From positions 1 through 34,793 of the forward strand of contig CACIPQ010000009.1 of the NCBI GenBank assembly GCA_902588585.1: a stretch of 34,793 nt of DNA. The letters run 5' to 3'. The notes under the pieces are model-generated. The model had not been told where the DNA came from, searched no databases, and worked only from the letters and a program-made list of their open reading frames with translations. The stretch comes from an uncultured Pelagibacteraceae bacterium. GTDB taxonomy: Bacteria; Pseudomonadota; Alphaproteobacteria; Pelagibacterales; Pelagibacteraceae. Made by a program: the position numbers and the translations under genes. Positions 19,617 through 25,778 of this stretch are shown here, in pieces; positions within the stretch are counted from its first letter, which is position 1; every line of letters begins with the position of its first letter.

Positions 19617-20990
19617 TTAAAAGATAAAGAAAGCTTTTTTTTGTTCCTTAAAGCTTTTTATCATTAAGCCTCTAGCTATCAGGAACACAATAAATCCTAG
19701 TATCCAATTCATAATGAGTAAGCCATAGAATATATCATTAAAATAACCATTCATAATATTCAAAACTATCCAAAGAATAATAAACGGTAAAATAACCATC
19801 CTAAAAAGGTTCATATAAAATATAAAATAACTTTTTTTAAGAGCTGCAAATAAAGCATGTGAAATAAAAAAAATTGGATAAACTGGGCAAATAAATGCAG
19901 TAATTTTTAAATAAGTAGATCCAAATTTGATTACTTCAAGATCGGTCGAAAAAATACGAATAATAGGTTCAGAAAGTAAATAAATTATAATTCCAGAAAA
20001 ACACATTACCGTCATGCCAATTAATATGCCTTTAAAATAAACCTCGCGTACTCTATCATATCTTCTAGCACCAAAATTTTGACCGGCTATTGATAATACA
20101 GCAGTATTCAATCCTATTATAGGCAAAATAAAAACCTGTTCAAATCTTAATGCCGATCCATAACCGGCTATAGCTTTATCTCCAAAAATAATTAGAAAGT
20201 ATAATAGAATAAAACCTCCTATTGAAACCATAAAAAGACTTACTGTAATGGGCATTGCTTGGTCAAAAATATTTCGAAAAAAATTTCTTCTTATAAGAAA
20301 GTTTTCAATTTTAGGGATTATTTTTATTTCTAACTTGTTAACTTTAAAATATAAATATATACAACCAACTAGTTGAATTAATATTGTTGAAATTGCTAAC
20401 CCAGATATTCCTAAAGCCGGAATAAAAAATAAACCAAAAATAAAAATAGGGTTTAAAATTATATTAGCAATTATCCCAACTAACATAAAATTTCTAAAGC
20501 TTTTTGTATCGCCTTGACAATTTAATATTGAATTAAATGAAAATTGTACTAAAAAAATAATAGTTCCTAAAAATATAATGTCTGTATATTTTTTTATTAA
20601 TATAATGCTTTCATGATTATTACCCATAAATTTGAGAAAATCATAAGAAAAATAAATTCCTATAAAAGTAATAAAGACTGAAAGTAAAATAGCGTACACA
20701 ATTGTATTATGTGCATAAATAGATGCCGCAATTTTATTTCTTTCTCCAATAGAGTTACCCATTAATGAATTACAACCAGATACTATTCCTATACCTGCTG
20801 CAATTATTACAAAATATATTGGAAAAGATTTTGCAAGAGCAGATAATGACTCTGGGGATATTTTACCTGCATAGAAAGTATCGATTATATTAAATAAAGT
20901 TTGAAATAAACTTCCTGTACTAGCTGGAATTGCAATTTGCCTAAGTAATTTTCCAATTGGATTAGAGGTTAAATTTAATTTTTTATTCAA
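19617..20990 (-). CDS. MATE-family efflux transporter
   Basis: Multidrug and toxin extrusion type antiporter of the inner membrane. The 457-residue protein is hydrophobic throughout with about 12 membrane segments. It shows the MATE opening NPIGKLLRQIAIPASTGSLFQTLFNIIDTFYAGKIS and the internal AIAGYGSALRFEQVFILPIIGLN, the paired-domain pattern of two MatE units. Coupling ion and substrate cannot be read from sequence. It is the last protein gene in the gatCAB-methyltransferase-trhO cluster, 8 bases after trhO, and has its own ATG with the expected short cytoplasmic N-terminus. Confidence 0.9.
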   Translation of the reverse strand: MNKKLNLTSNPIGKLLRQIAIPASTGSLFQTLFNIIDTFYAGKISPESLSALAKSFPIYFVIIAAGIGIVSGCNSLMGNSIGERNKIAASIYAHNTIVYAILLSVFITFIGIYFSYDFLKFMGNNHESIILIKKYTDIIFLGTIIFLVQFSFNSILNCQGDTKSFRNFMLVGIIANIILNPIFIFGLFFIPALGISGLAISTILIQLVGCIYLYFKVNKLEIKIIPKIENFLIRRNFFRNIFDQAMPITVSLFMVSIGGFILLYFLIIFGDKAIAGYGSALRFEQVFILPIIGLNTAVLSIAGQNFGARRYDRVREVYFKGILIGMTVMCFSGIIIYLLSEPIIRIFSTDLEVIKFGSTYLKITAFICPVYPIFFISHALFAALKKSYFIFYMNLFRMVILPFIILWIVLNIMNGYFNDIFYGLLIMNWILGFIVFLIARGLMIKSFKEQKKAFFIF

Positions 20991-20998
20991 TTTTTACC

Positions 20999-21904
20999 TC
21001 AACGATATTCTTTTTGAAAAATATGTTTTTTGCCTATTTTTTTTGCAATTAAAATTTGTTTTTGTCTCATAGCAAATCTTTCTTTTTGTGTTTCAGTAAG
21101 ATAATCATGACATTTGGGACAAGAAATACCTTCTACATATTTTTTAGATTTTTTTTCTTTCATTGATACTGGCTTTCTACATCCGCTACACATTGAATGA
21201 GTACCAATTTTTAATTTATGTTTAAGCGAAACTCGATTGTCAAAAACGTAGCACTCCCCTTTCCACAAACTTTGTTTTTTATCAATTTTTTTCAAATAAT
21301 TTAATATTCCTCCTTTTAGTTGAAAAACATTTTTAAATCCTTTTTTTCTTAAATAAACAGAGGCTTTTTCACATCTAATTCCTCCAGTGCAAAACATTGC
21401 AATCTTACTTTTTTTATCAAATTTATTTAAATATTTTGGAAAATCTCTAAAATTATTCACATTAGGGTTTTTCGCTCCCTTAAAAGTTCCTACATTGTGC
21501 TCAAAAGACTTTCTTGTGTCTATTACTTTTATGTCTTTTTTTTTTAACAGTAAATTCCATTCTCTTGGTTCAAGTGAATTATCAATTTTTTGTGATGCTG
21601 AAATTTTAATTCCTATTGGCACTACTTCTTTTTTGATTTTAACTTTTCCTCTATGAAAAGGTTGAAATTTATTTACAGAACTATTTTCAGAGTCAAATTT
21701 TTTAATTTTACAGATTTTTTTTAAAATTTCTTTTATTTTTTTAATATTATTTTTTTTCCCAGAAAGAGTTCCGTTGATACCCTCATTTGAAAAAATTATG
21801 GTACCTCTTATCTGATTTTTTATTAGCTTTTCTTGAAAAGTCTTTTTAAGTTTTTTAAGACTTGACAGTTTTTTAAATTTATAAAACCCATAAATATAGA
21901 ACAT
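20999..21904 (-). CDS. trhO: tRNA uridine-34 5-hydroxylase TrhO (rhodanese-domain protein, YceA type)
   Basis: TrhO uses oxygen to hydroxylate uridine at wobble position 34 of several tRNAs, giving ho5U34. The N-terminal ferredoxin-like domain contains RGTIIFSNEGINGTLSG. The central rhodanese domain has VIDTRKSFEHNVGTFKGA and the catalytic-loop segment MFCTGGIRCEKA. A C-terminal part holds a putative zinc-binding arrangement, CSGCRKPV and CPKCHDYL. Length 301 is at the short end for the family. It starts directly after the O-methyltransferase gene with no gap, which suggests a joint tRNA-modification role. Confidence is high in the family and good in the function. Confidence 0.92.
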   Translation of the reverse strand: MFYIYGFYKFKKLSSLKKLKKTFQEKLIKNQIRGTIIFSNEGINGTLSGKKNNIKKIKEILKKICKIKKFDSENSSVNKFQPFHRGKVKIKKEVVPIGIKISASQKIDNSLEPREWNLLLKKKDIKVIDTRKSFEHNVGTFKGAKNPNVNNFRDFPKYLNKFDKKSKIAMFCTGGIRCEKASVYLRKKGFKNVFQLKGGILNYLKKIDKKQSLWKGECYVFDNRVSLKHKLKIGTHSMCSGCRKPVSMKEKKSKKYVEGISCPKCHDYLTETQKERFAMRQKQILIAKKIGKKHIFQKEYR

Positions 21905-22561
21905 TTAAATTTTCCTACAAATTGTTACCCCGTCTCCTAACGGTAAAATGGTTTTTTCTACCCTATCGTCTTTCTTAATGAAAGAATTAAATTCTCTAAT
22001 TATATTAGTTAATTTATCATTTTTGTTAGGATCAATAACATCTCCTTTCCATAAAACATTGTCTATAAGTATAAATCCATTATTTTTGAGAAGTTCTAGA
22101 GACAAATTGTAATAATTCTTATAATTCTCCTTGTCGGCATCAATAAATATCATATCAAATATTTTTTTATCATTTTTTAACTTCTTAAGACTTTCAATCG
22201 CTGGTGCTAAAATAATTTTTATTTTTTTATCCAAATTTGCTTTTTTAAAAAAACTTTTAGCTGATTCTGAAGTTTTTTTATTAATATCCAAGCAAGTAAT
22301 ATTTCCATTTTTTGGCATAACAAGACCCATGGACAAAGCGCTATAACCTGTAAAAGTTCCAATTTCTAAAATATTTTCTATCTTATTTAACTTAATAAAA
22401 AGTTGGAAAAAATAAGCTTGTGTTACTGAAATTTGCATTCTTTTACTAAGACCTAGACTATTATTATGAATGAGTATTTCTTTTTGAATTGGATGAAGGT
22501 CGTAACTATGATCGGAGATATATTTTTCCAATCTCTCATTAATTTCTAAATTCTTAATCAT
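21905..22561 (-). CDS. SAM-dependent O-methyltransferase, COMT family 3 (candidate TrmR-like tRNA ho5U34 methyltransferase)
   Basis: A 218-residue Rossmann-fold methyltransferase of the cation-dependent O-methyltransferase family (caffeoyl-CoA OMT/COMTD1/YrrM group). Motif I is [15 protein letters not shown], and the metal-binding region is [16 protein letters not shown] followed by [13 protein letters not shown]. The substrate is not visible from sequence. In Bacillus subtilis a family member of nearly the same length (YrrM/TrmR) methylates ho5U34 of tRNA. Here the gene abuts trhO, which makes ho5U34, so the same role is an attractive inference. A small-molecule catechol-type substrate is the alternative. 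It overlaps gatB by 4 bases. Confidence 0.82.
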
Positions 22562-24027
22562 TTTTTTAATTTTTTTTTTAGAATATCGTTAACCAAACCT
22601 GGGTTAGCTTTTCCAGATGAGGCTTTCATGATTTCACCAACAAAGAACCCAAGGAGTTTTTCTTTACCAGACCTAAATTCAGAAACTTTATCTGAATTAT
22701 TTTCTAAAACTTTAATTACAATTTTTTCCAGCTCTTTAGGATCGCTCTGTTGTTTTAATCCCTTTTCTTTTATAATTTTTAATGGTTCGTCTCCAGTTTC
22801 AACCATTATTTCAAATACCTTCTTTGCTATTTTTCCTGAGATTTCTCCTGTAGTAATAGAATTAATTAGCGAAGCAAGGTTTTTTGGTAAAACCGGCGAA
22901 TCTTTTATATCTAAATTTTTTTCATTCAAAACAGCAAAAAGCTCAACAATTATCCAGTTTTTAGCAAGTTTTATATCTGCATTCTTTATTACTTCTTCAA
23001 AGTATTTTGAAATACCAATTTCAGAGACTAAAACATTGGCTTCGTACGGTGAGAGTTTAAATTTTTTGATAAATCTATCTTTTTTTTGATCGGGTAATTC
23101 TGGTAATTTTTTTTTCAAACTATCAACAAAACTTTGCTCAATTTTTAATGGTAATAAATCAGGATCTGGAAAGTATCTGTAGTCGTGTGCTTCCTCTTTT
23201 GATCTCATTGATCTAGTTTCATTCTTTTTTGTATCAAAAAGTCTAGTTTCTTGTTCTATAACTTTTCCTGATTCAAGTAATTCAATTTGTCTTTTTGCCT
23301 CTGAATCAATTGCCATTTCCATAAATTTAATTGAATTTACATTTTTTATTTCACATCTGGTCCCAAATTTTTTTTCCCCTTTTTTTCTGACAGAAACATT
23401 AACGTCAGCTCTTAAAGATCCCTCTTGCATATTTCCATCACAAGTTCCAAGATATCTCATTATTGATCTAAGTTTTTTAACATAAGAATTTACCTCGTCT
23501 GGAGATCGTAAATCAGGTTTACTTACAATTTCCATCAATGCCACTCCTGATCTGTTTAAATCAACAAAAGTATTGTCAGGACTTAAATCATGTATACTTT
23601 TTCCGGCGTCCTGTTCTAAATGCAATCTTTCTATACCGACTTTTTTTGTTCCGTATGGCATATCAAGAGTAACAATGCCCTCTCCAACTATAGGATTTTT
23701 ATATTGAGATATTTGATAGCCTGCTGGTAAATCAGCATAAAAATAATTTTTTCTATCAAAAATAGAATGCAAATTAATTTTGGCATTCAAACCCAAGCCA
23801 GTTTTAATAGCTTGCTCTATACAGTATTGATTTATAACTGGAAGCATTCCTGGAAATGCTGAATCTACTAAACTAACTTGAGTATTTGGTTTTCCACCAA
23901 ACTTTGTTGATGATCCAGAAAATAATTTTGAATTAGAAATAACTTGAGCATGTACCTCTAGACCAATAATTATTTCCCAACTGTTTTTTTCAGTTTTTAT
24001 ATAATAATCAAATTTATCTTTTTCCAT
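22558..24027 (-). CDS. gatB: Asp-tRNA(Asn)/Glu-tRNA(Gln) amidotransferase subunit B
   Basis: The tRNA-binding kinase subunit of the GatCAB complex, which converts mischarged Glu-tRNA(Gln) and/or Asp-tRNA(Asn) to the amide forms. The 489-residue protein has the family opening [13 protein letters not shown], then [34 protein letters not shown] and [18 protein letters not shown], and the C-terminal YqeY-like tail domain ending in [17 protein letters not shown]. It follows gatA after 3 bases. Its presence implies that at least one amide aminoacyl-tRNA is made indirectly. Confidence 0.97.
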
Positions 24028-24030
24028 AAA

Positions 24031-25488
24031 TTATTCCCACCATCTATCGATAGATTGTTTAAATGCAATGCTTTTTTCCATTGCTAAAGCTATATTTAAA
24101 ATTTTTTGTTCGTCCAGTGTATTTGTTATGAGCTGAAGTCCCAAAGGATGTCCTTGCTTATCTTGTCCAGCTGGTATTGAAATTGCAGGAATACCAGCTA
24201 AATTAACTGGTACAGTAAATATGTCATTTAAATACATAGATATTGGATCGTTAGTCTTCTCTCCAATTTTAAAAGCTGAACTTGGAGTAGATGGTGTCAA
24301 AATAGCGTCAACATTTTTAAAACACTTATCAAAATCATTTTTAATTAACTTTCTTACTTTCTGAGCTTTAAGATAGTAAGCGTCGTAATAACCTGACGAT
24401 AAAACATAAGTACCAATTAAGATTCTTCTTTTGACTTCGTCTCCAAATGCTTCTCCACGAGTATTCTCGTACATTTCGATAAGATTTTTTCCTTTTTTAG
24501 ACCTATATCCATATTTAACTCCATCGTAACGTGCTAAGTTTGACGAAGCTTCAGCTGGTGCAACTATATAGTAAGTTGGTAAAGCATACTTTGTGTGAGG
24601 AAGTGAAATATCAACTATCTTTGCACCAGATTTTTTTAAAATATCTATTCCTTTTTTCCAAAGAATATCTATTTCTTTTGGCATATTTTCAACTCTGTAC
24701 TCTTTAGGTATACCAATTTTCAATCCTTTTATTTTTTCACTTAAATTTTTTGAATATTTTTCTTTTTTTTTATTTATAGAGGTAGAATCTTTTTCATCAT
24801 ATCCTGACATCGCTTCTAAGAGCAAAGCACAATCCTTAACATTTTTTGTCATTGGACCTGCTTGGTCAAGTGAAGATGCAAAAGCAACAATTCCCCATCT
24901 AGAGCAGAGACCGTAAGTAGGTTTTAATCCTACGGTTCCAGTAAATGAAGCTGGTTGTCGAATTGAACCACCAGTGTCTGTACCGATTGTTGCTGGAGTA
25001 AGGTTTGCTGCTAAAGCACTTGCGGATCCTCCTGAAGATCCACCAGGAACTAAATCTTTACCTATTGGATTGATTGTGTTGCCAAAAAAACTTGTTTCAT
25101 TAGAAGAGCCCATAGCAAATTCATCACAATTTAGTTTACCAAGTAAAATAGCTCCCTCTGACCACAAATTGTTACTAACTGTGGATTCATAGGTAGGTAT
25201 AAAATTTTCAAGAATTTTACTTCCTGCTGTTGTTTTTACATTCTTTGTACAGAATAAATCTTTTATAGCTAACGGTACTCCAGAAAGCAAACCGTCAAAA
25301 TTTTTTTTTTCATCAAAATCTTTTGCTTTTTTCAGACTTTCCTCAAAACACGTTGTGATAAAACTATTTAATTTTTTACTTTTTTCAATATTTTTAATAA
25401 AATGTTTTGTAATTTCTAAAGAAGATACTTTTTTCGATTTAATTAAATTTACAATTTCTAAGAGTGAACTATTATTTAAATTAGTCAT
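24031..25488 (-). CDS. gatA: Asp-tRNA(Asn)/Glu-tRNA(Gln) amidotransferase subunit A
   Basis: Glutaminase subunit of GatCAB, supplying ammonia through an amidase-signature active site. The Ser-cisSer-Lys machinery is visible as the Lys in PLAIKDLFCT, the Ser-rich PGGSSGGSASALAA and GTDTGGSIRQPASFTG. Length 485 is normal. The gene starts 2 bases after gatC and ends 3 bases before gatB, so all three subunits are made from one transcript. There is no sign of frame damage. Very secure. Confidence 0.97.
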   Translation of the reverse strand: MTNLNNSSLLEIVNLIKSKKVSSLEITKHFIKNIEKSKKLNSFITTCFEESLKKAKDFDEKKNFDGLLSGVPLAIKDLFCTKNVKTTAGSKILENFIPTYESTVSNNLWSEGAILLGKLNCDEFAMGSSNETSFFGNTINPIGKDLVPGGSSGGSASALAANLTPATIGTDTGGSIRQPASFTGTVGLKPTYGLCSRWGIVAFASSLDQAGPMTKNVKDCALLLEAMSGYDEKDSTSINKKKEKYSKNLSEKIKGLKIGIPKEYRVENMPKEIDILWKKGIDILKKSGAKIVDISLPHTKYALPTYYIVAPAEASSNLARYDGVKYGYRSKKGKNLIEMYENTRGEAFGDEVKRRILIGTYVLSSGYYDAYYLKAQKVRKLIKNDFDKCFKNVDAILTPSTPSSAFKIGEKTNDPISMYLNDIFTVPVNLAGIPAISIPAGQDKQGHPLGLQLITNTLDEQKILNIALAMEKSIAFKQSIDRWWE

Positions 25489-25490
25489 AT

Positions 25491-25778
25491 TTATTCTACT
25501 ACTTTCGGAACAATAAAAAAGTCTTCATTTTTTTCAGGAGAATTTTTTAGTATTTCATTTTTAATTTCTCCATCGTTAATTTTATCTTTTCTAGGATCAA
25601 GAGTTTTATTAACTACAGAAGTCAAAGGCTCTATTTTCTTTGTATCTAACTTATTAAGCTGCTCAACAAAATTTAATATTGAAGCTAAATCTTTAGATAA
25701 AGATTCCAGTTTGCTGTCATCTAGAGAAATTCTAGATAATTTTGCAACTTTTTTAACTTGGTTTTTATCTATAGACAT
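25491..25778 (-). CDS. gatC: Asp-tRNA(Asn)/Glu-tRNA(Gln) amidotransferase subunit C
   Basis: Small stabilising subunit of the GatCAB complex, wrapping the GatA-GatB interface. The 95-residue protein shows the family pattern VKKVAKLSRISLDDSKLE, the ILNFVEQLNKLDT helix and a C-terminal ending FFIVPKVVE. It is the first gene of the minus-strand cluster that continues to tRNA-Ser and is divergent from ruvX across a 53-base spacer, an arrangement shared by many alphaproteobacteria. Confidence 0.95.
   Translation of the reverse strand: MSIDKNQVKKVAKLSRISLDDSKLESLSKDLASILNFVEQLNKLDTKKIEPLTSVVNKTLDPRKDKINDGEIKNEILKNSPEKNEDFFIVPKVVE

Follow-up and report, generated by a model that had tools for sequence, protein, structure and literature searches.

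Which enzyme deals with 5-hydroxyuridine at the wobble position of tRNA (ho5U34) in bacteria that carry the hydroxylase TrhO and lack CmoB? The finding of TrhO in 128 of 385 alphaproteobacterial genomes, and of CmoB in none, raises this question of the fate of ho5U34 for a whole class. We address it at a locus within a 34,793-nt stretch of DNA (the window) from an uncultured member of the Pelagibacteraceae (SAR11), in which trhO directly follows the gene for an O-methyltransferase (OMT) of family PF01596. With a probability of roughly 0.54, we propose that this OMT, which appears not to be a TrmR, makes 5-methoxyuridine (mo5U34) in SAR11. The two genes would form a single unit that is probably translationally coupled. 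TrhO, whose function is assigned by family membership, would use O2 to hydroxylate U34 of some tRNAs, and the adjoining OMT, dependent on S-adenosylmethionine (SAM) and metal, would methylate the resulting 5-hydroxyl in a lineage without CmoB. The route would resemble that of Bacillus in its chemistry and differ from it in the origin of its second enzyme, a separately recruited relative of the caffeoyl-CoA O-methyltransferases (CCoAOMTs). The retention of the pair in nearly all family loci, the fitting chemistry, published gene fusions and the lack of CmoB together make such a route plausible, and from them we infer that the OMT acts on tRNA, takes ho5U34 as its substrate and yields mo5U.

The two open reading frames (ORFs; Table 1) are as described in the initial annotation: a 218-residue family 3 OMT abuts trhO on the same (minus) strand, with no base between them, and both ORFs start with ATG. 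The OMT scores 211 bits against PF01596 (cut-off 22) and is the only match to this family at E ≤ 0.001 in its genome, an assembly of 992,303 bases that is 86.6% complete; the closest named relatives of this genome are other uncultured Pelagibacteraceae, with 84% identity in the OMT. TrhO, also correctly named at the outset, passes NCBIfam NF001133 (268.7 bits, cut-off 170), with a Pfam Rhodanese_C match slightly under its cut-off (24.7 against 26.9). Its active-site loop CxGGxR reads CTGGIR at residue 172, and the CxGGxR pattern is present in 95/95 full-length TrhO ORFs of the family. Four residues of this loop (Cys, Thr, the second Gly and Arg) were essential in E. coli TrhO (PMC6599085). Both genes are under purifying selection, with ratios of nonsynonymous to synonymous substitution rates (dN/dS) of 0.09–0.14 for the OMT and 0.09–0.21 for TrhO in six pairs each, rough values given that some dS are near or above 1.

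The pair is conserved in nearly all loci examined across the family; the sets of loci described here may overlap and their counts are not additive. Among 31 genomes of the genus, at E < 1e-20, the OMT is found in 24, TrhO in 24, both in 23 and neither in 6; the OMT stands alone in one genome (G001) and TrhO in another (G023), where trhO is cut by a contig end. The two genes are adjacent on one strand in all 22 testable genus genomes, and in the 23rd genome with both (G009) they are split over contig ends. Named assemblies contributed 17 loci, 8 of them already counted among the genus genomes and the 9 others at 50–55% identity. The pair is likewise kept in 8/8 loci on other SAR11 contigs that extend beyond the OMT (L044–L051), and in 4/4 other members of the family met in the class survey. 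A search of the order (397 genomes) gave 65 loci for examination, comprising 25 new ones that were the best-scoring returned and 40 picked from listed places, and all 65 have the order gatB-OMT-trhO. The junction itself is equally constant: both genes are present in 99 of the 102 family loci taken in, and the trhO ATG lies 0 (16 loci) or −1 (80 loci) base from the OMT stop codon in 96 of those 99, the three exceptions being two 25-base overlaps (L239 and L240) and one locus cut by a contig end (L299).

The surroundings of the pair vary within the genus. The gene gatB lies upstream of the OMT in loci L002–L012 and is missing there from ten others (L013–L022), and the OMT and trhO stay together in all of them. 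We inspected five loci without gatB, four of these ten plus L043, which comes from the same genome and contig as L015. Upstream are nuoN-like and birA genes in three and a dgt-like HD-domain gene in two (nuoN and dgt named from sequence), and the run OMT-trhO-MATE is unbroken in all five. The six genus members with neither gene (G003, G014, G017, G019, G020 and G025) are mostly uninformative: gatB too is missing from three of them (G003, G019 and G025) and lies at a contig end in G020. The gatB of G014 is followed directly by acpS-lepB-rnc-recO and that of G017 by a type III pantothenate kinase-like gene (all names read from sequence). In the sister family f174, the 43 listed members have weak OMT matches only (best E 2e-14 to 1.5e-7).

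We then asked what kind of methyltransferase stands beside trhO. Sequence and residue composition at the metal and catalytic positions place the OMT among the CCoAOMT-like cation-dependent enzymes: D141, K144, D167 and N168 occupy the positions expected for the family, with roles that we take to be those assigned in catechol O-methyltransferase (COMT) and CCoAOMT. A sequence search of the PDB returned 3r3h, 3cbg and 3tr6 as the best matches (168 to 148 bits). Lower scores go to the B. subtilis TrmR structure 5zw3 (82 bits) and to 8k1f (87 bits), which is named as a tRNA 5-hydroxyuridine methyltransferase and differs little from the Fusobacterium locus L275; Rv0187 from Mycobacterium tuberculosis is distant, at 61 bits. 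In a 58-row tree, whose bootstrap is not fully settled and in which several AT-rich rows, including several of the family, are flagged for composition, five TrmR rows form a clade of their own (100/96) with the Pelagibacteraceae OMTs outside it. A 46-row tree, again with several AT-rich rows flagged, several of the family among them, recovers the TrmR clade (100/99) without any Pelagibacteraceae row, and groups the family OMTs with the OMTs from three further TrhO-positive genomes, G182, G360 and G191 (96/90). The motif FIDAAK is common to the five TrmR rows and missing from the window OMT, whereas 98/98 full-length family OMTs carry F[IV]D[AG]DK (FIDADK, FVDADK or FIDGDK) and DNVLW. The FIDAAK signature was derived in this analysis from those five rows, of which 5zw3 is the one proven enzyme; the Fusobacterium row was included through the name of 8k1f, the Monoglobus row through its mltG context, and 2gpy and 3ntv through their grouping.

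Structure comparison agrees only weakly. An AlphaFold2 model of the OMT (predicted local distance difference test, pLDDT, 85.6) is closest in fold to 3tr6, 3cbg and SafC (5log), at Z scores of about 30, followed by human COMTD1 (2avd, Z 27.5), TrmR (5zw3, Z 26.9, root-mean-square deviation 2.7 over 203 aligned residues), OMT structures from Anaplasma (Z about 26, below many small-molecule OMTs) and Legionella 3r3h, which is best by sequence and reaches Z 25.7 only. The OMT has the Methyltransf_3 fold that TrmR shares. With this predicted model, the ranking gives only a weak separation of the CCoAOMT-like enzymes from the TrmR group and leaves the substrate undecided. A basic RNA-binding loop, considered as a mark of TrmR, was rejected as not discriminating (mean charge 0.8 in TrmR, 0.07 in the family and −2.3 in others). 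On tree and motif, then, the OMT is to be grouped with the CCoAOMT-like small-molecule OMTs and not with TrmR. The initial annotation had called it TrmR-like and had held that a grouping far from TrmR would speak against its proposal; judged by sequence relationships, and leaving activity aside, that is the grouping we find.

Known systems supply both precedents and differences. In B. subtilis, TrmR (YrrM) makes mo5U34 from ho5U34 supplied by TrhP1/TrhP2 and TrhO (YbfQ), and a triple deletion abolishes mo5U34 (PMC6599085). SAR11 would share with it the hydroxylation of U34 by TrhO and, if the inference holds, a SAM-dependent O-methyltransferase with the PF01596 fold as the second enzyme. It differs in that the OMT lies outside the TrmR clade and lacks FIDAAK, in that the window's genome has no match to peptidase U32 (the TrhP type), and in gene order, the OMT being coupled to trhO and B. 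subtilis trmR lying with trhP1/P2 (PMC6599085). The contrast drawn at the outset between a TrhO-based pair and the TrhP-TrmR arrangement of Bacillus is partly wrong: B. subtilis also feeds TrmR through TrhO, so that the pairing of TrhO with an ho5U methyltransferase is not in itself new. The same source (Sakai et al. 2019) reports eukaryotic genes in which yceA (trhO) is joined to a trmR homologue (Phytophthora sojae, P. ramorum and Phaeodactylum tricornutum), an observation that partly led to the finding of trhO, and counts Ehrlichia canis, an alphaproteobacterium, as trmR-bearing without trhP. These fusions join TrhO to an OMT as SAR11 does with two abutting genes, and so raise the odds for the pathway while lowering the novelty of the bare pairing; they are single eukaryotic genes, and their fused domain may be TrmR proper or CCoAOMT-like. 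A link between TrhO and a methyltransferase has thus been published, but for organisms other than SAR11 and, in the sections consulted, without the OMT subfamily resolved; among the papers listed from the open-licence PubMed Central (PMC) literature, none deals with mo5U or with a TrhO-OMT pair in SAR11.

E. coli shares the TrhO step, and there TrhP/TrhO act with CmoA/CmoB to give 5-carboxymethoxyuridine (cmo5U34); a strain without cmoB builds up ho5U34 (PMC6599085). SAR11 differs from it in CmoB, which has no match over the cut-off in the window's genome (best 34.5 bits against 275 in an assembly 86.6% complete) or in any of the 385 alphaproteobacteria; one of 14 control genomes passed, presumably E. 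coli. The absence of cmoA and cmoB, on which the initial annotation had made its proposal depend, accordingly holds for CmoB; CmoA was not searched for. At least 20 tRNA genes were found in the genome. Among those listed, the Val and Leu(CUN) boxes are represented by G34 and U34 tRNAs without a C34 tRNA, and a further scan of about 400 kb added none. Ala, Thr and Pro tRNAs are also missing from the list, which marks this set as incomplete and of little evidential value.

Several observations weigh against the proposed pathway, beginning with the tree placement described above. MATE follows trhO in 64/65 order loci (the other, L299, ends inside trhO) and gatB precedes the OMT in 65/65, so both are linked to the pair about as tightly as the OMT is to trhO, and synteny of the whole block could explain the pairing. 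The one break of OMT from trhO among the examined loci, in G001 (L111:16396-17140), leaves an intact OMT separated from MATE by a trhO remnant of a start codon and 11 codons resembling the trhO end; in this genome, 75% complete and partly contaminated, the OMT is not strictly dependent on trhO. Across the class survey, PF01596 is over its cut-off in 185 of 385 genomes, and strong matches (E ≤ 4.8e-30; 136 genomes, transcribed by hand) are weakly and negatively associated with TrhO, occurring in 36/128 TrhO-positive genomes against 100/257 others (odds ratio (OR) 0.61, p 0.042). Both a CmoB over the cut-off and a strong PF01596 match are missing from 92/128 TrhO genomes, which argues that TrhO does not generally need such an OMT. 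The neighbourhoods of 127 trhO genes outside the window's genome, with flanks of about 1.5 kb for 30 and up to 3 kb for 97, contain an OMT in 5 cases, four of them family members; outside the family the count is 1/123, a divergent gene in G062, of another alphaproteobacterial family (L171:2881-4408). The eukaryotic fusions are open to the reservation given above, and Rv0187, a member of the same superfamily, methylates free ho5U but did not act significantly on tRNA containing ho5U (PMC6543040, where these data are not shown).

Small genomes give the opposite sign. Among the 138 hand-transcribed genomes of at most 2.0 Mb, strong PF01596 matches occur in 23/69 TrhO-positive genomes against 7/69 others (OR 4.4, p 0.0017), and with the window's own family removed in 18/64 against 7/69 (OR 3.5, p 0.013); the 2.0 Mb cut was chosen after the whole-class result, the statistics ignore kinship, and some small genomes fall outside the 138.

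The commonest neighbour of TrhO in the class is a glutathione S-transferase (GST)/glutaredoxin-like protein, found at 37/127 loci (for example L196:2162-2851; family checked on that example), which could be a redox partner of TrhO. Within the genus, a U32 match occurs in 1/31 genomes, G001, where a U32 peptidase-family gene is followed by a short ferredoxin-like ORF as read from sequence (L110, contig C21). We considered and rejected a replacement of TrhO by TrhP in this genome, because C21 looks foreign: of three nrdB matches, one is on C21 itself, that on C41 is 97% like it and that on C78 is 71% like it, as is the rest of the genus; a transglycosylase is only 39% identical to that of the window; and the GC content is 0.32 against 0.29.

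Relatives of the OMT occur in diverse settings. In Legionella adelaidensis, a relative with 45.7% identity (L276:2925-7418, on a plasmid) lies in a tyrosine/homogentisate catabolism cluster, flanked by an amino acid dehydrogenase gene on one side and by hppD, a fumarylacetoacetate hydrolase gene and maiA on the other, a context in favour of small-molecule substrates for that branch. In G191 (L356:2501-5592), whose placement inside the family OMT clade is weak (87/35), the OMT gene comes immediately after one for a pyrimidine nucleoside phosphorylase; purine nucleoside phosphorylase and cytidine deaminase genes lie upstream, and together they form a nucleoside-salvage run. In G182 and G360, from another small-genome family, it lies just upstream of prfA and yebC (L355:484-3169 and L361:2408-5106; families checked in L355).

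These settings correspond to three other explanations. The OMT may be an ordinary cation-dependent methyltransferase of small molecules, with a catechol, a phenylpropanoid or a tyrosine-derived compound as its substrate, that sits by chance with trhO in a stable SAR11 block. Known CCoAOMT-like cation-dependent enzymes act on small catechols, and the nearest of them (Coxiella 3tr6, Synechocystis 3cbg, SafC 5log and Legionella 3r3h) share with the OMT the best sequence matches, the DADK and DN motifs and the same side of the tree, with 3tr6, 3cbg and SafC also leading by fold. This explanation is also in keeping with the Legionella cluster, with the lack of TrhO over the cut-off in 100 of the 136 class genomes that match PF01596 strongly, and with the equally tight linkage of MATE (and of gatB in most of the family). 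Yet the nine window proteins that were scanned, among the ORFs of the window, include no phenolic or tyrosine-degradation gene; the OMT has been kept in a streamlined genome as its sole PF01596 match; and it stays joined to trhO in the ten genus loci from which upstream gatB is missing. We regard a small-molecule role as unlikely, although it is the most serious of the three.

The other two are improbable to about the same degree. The OMT might methylate 5-hydroxypyrimidines as free nucleosides, in salvage or damage control, rather than in tRNA. Rv0187 behaves in this way, whereas TrmR has no significant activity on free ho5U (both from PMC6543040), so that activity on 5-hydroxyuridine in this superfamily does not imply activity on tRNA; and the OMT of G191, in the same supported clade (96/90) as the family, belongs to a salvage run. 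But G191 is a single genome of weak exact placement, and no nucleoside-salvage gene adjoins the window OMT. Alternatively, the OMT might modify a protein or some other target, its place beside trhO being inherited gene order only. The Anaplasma structures, which match the model at Z about 26, and the two loci with prfA and yebC would suit such a role, whereas the many small-molecule OMTs that rank above the Anaplasma enzymes and the junction of 0 or −1 base kept in nearly all family loci speak against it.

The wider locus runs gatC-gatA-gatB-OMT-trhO-MATE on the minus strand (Table 1). The pair had been placed inside a gatCAB operon; it lies instead directly downstream of gatC-gatA-gatB, with a MATE-family gene after trhO. 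Taken as a whole, the interpretation offered in the initial annotation is partly supported.

Table 1. Features of the OMT-trhO locus (positions in the window)
Feature	Position	Strand	Basis
O-methyltransferase (OMT), Methyltransf_3 (PF01596), 218 aa	21905..22561	minus	profile match, motifs, tree
trhO, 301 aa: UPF0176_N; rhodanese domain (CTGGIR, 172-177); two CxxC pairs (239, 262) in the C-terminal part	20999..21904	minus	
OMT/trhO junction, stop TAA then at once ATG, zero gap	21896..21913	minus	
gatB, overlapping OMT start by 4 bases (22558-22561)	22558..24027	minus	profile match
gatA	24031..25488	minus	profile match
gatC	25491..25778	minus	profile match
MATE-family efflux transporter, next after trhO, beginning 8 bases on	19617..20990	minus	profile match

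What would follow from a non-TrmR methyltransferase making mo5U34 beside TrhO reaches beyond this locus. The synthesis of mo5U34 may have been invented a second time, a CCoAOMT-like OMT having taken over the methylation of ho5U34 after TrhO in SAR11, perhaps along with other alphaproteobacteria of small genome size that lack CmoB, a suggestion that we make tentatively and hold at a little under even odds. If the OMT does not act in this way, the locus is a warning that 'TrmR homologues' counted by broad family, as for Ehrlichia canis, may be something else. If it does, the eukaryotic TrhO-OMT fusions could descend from this same pair, which may be alphaproteobacterial (mitochondrial) in origin. 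The finishing of ho5U34 as mo5U34 by the OMT would then settle the fate of this nucleotide for the SAR11 family and define a second, non-TrmR ho5U34 methyltransferase, and cells that abound in the ocean would have a minimal wobble pathway of two genes.
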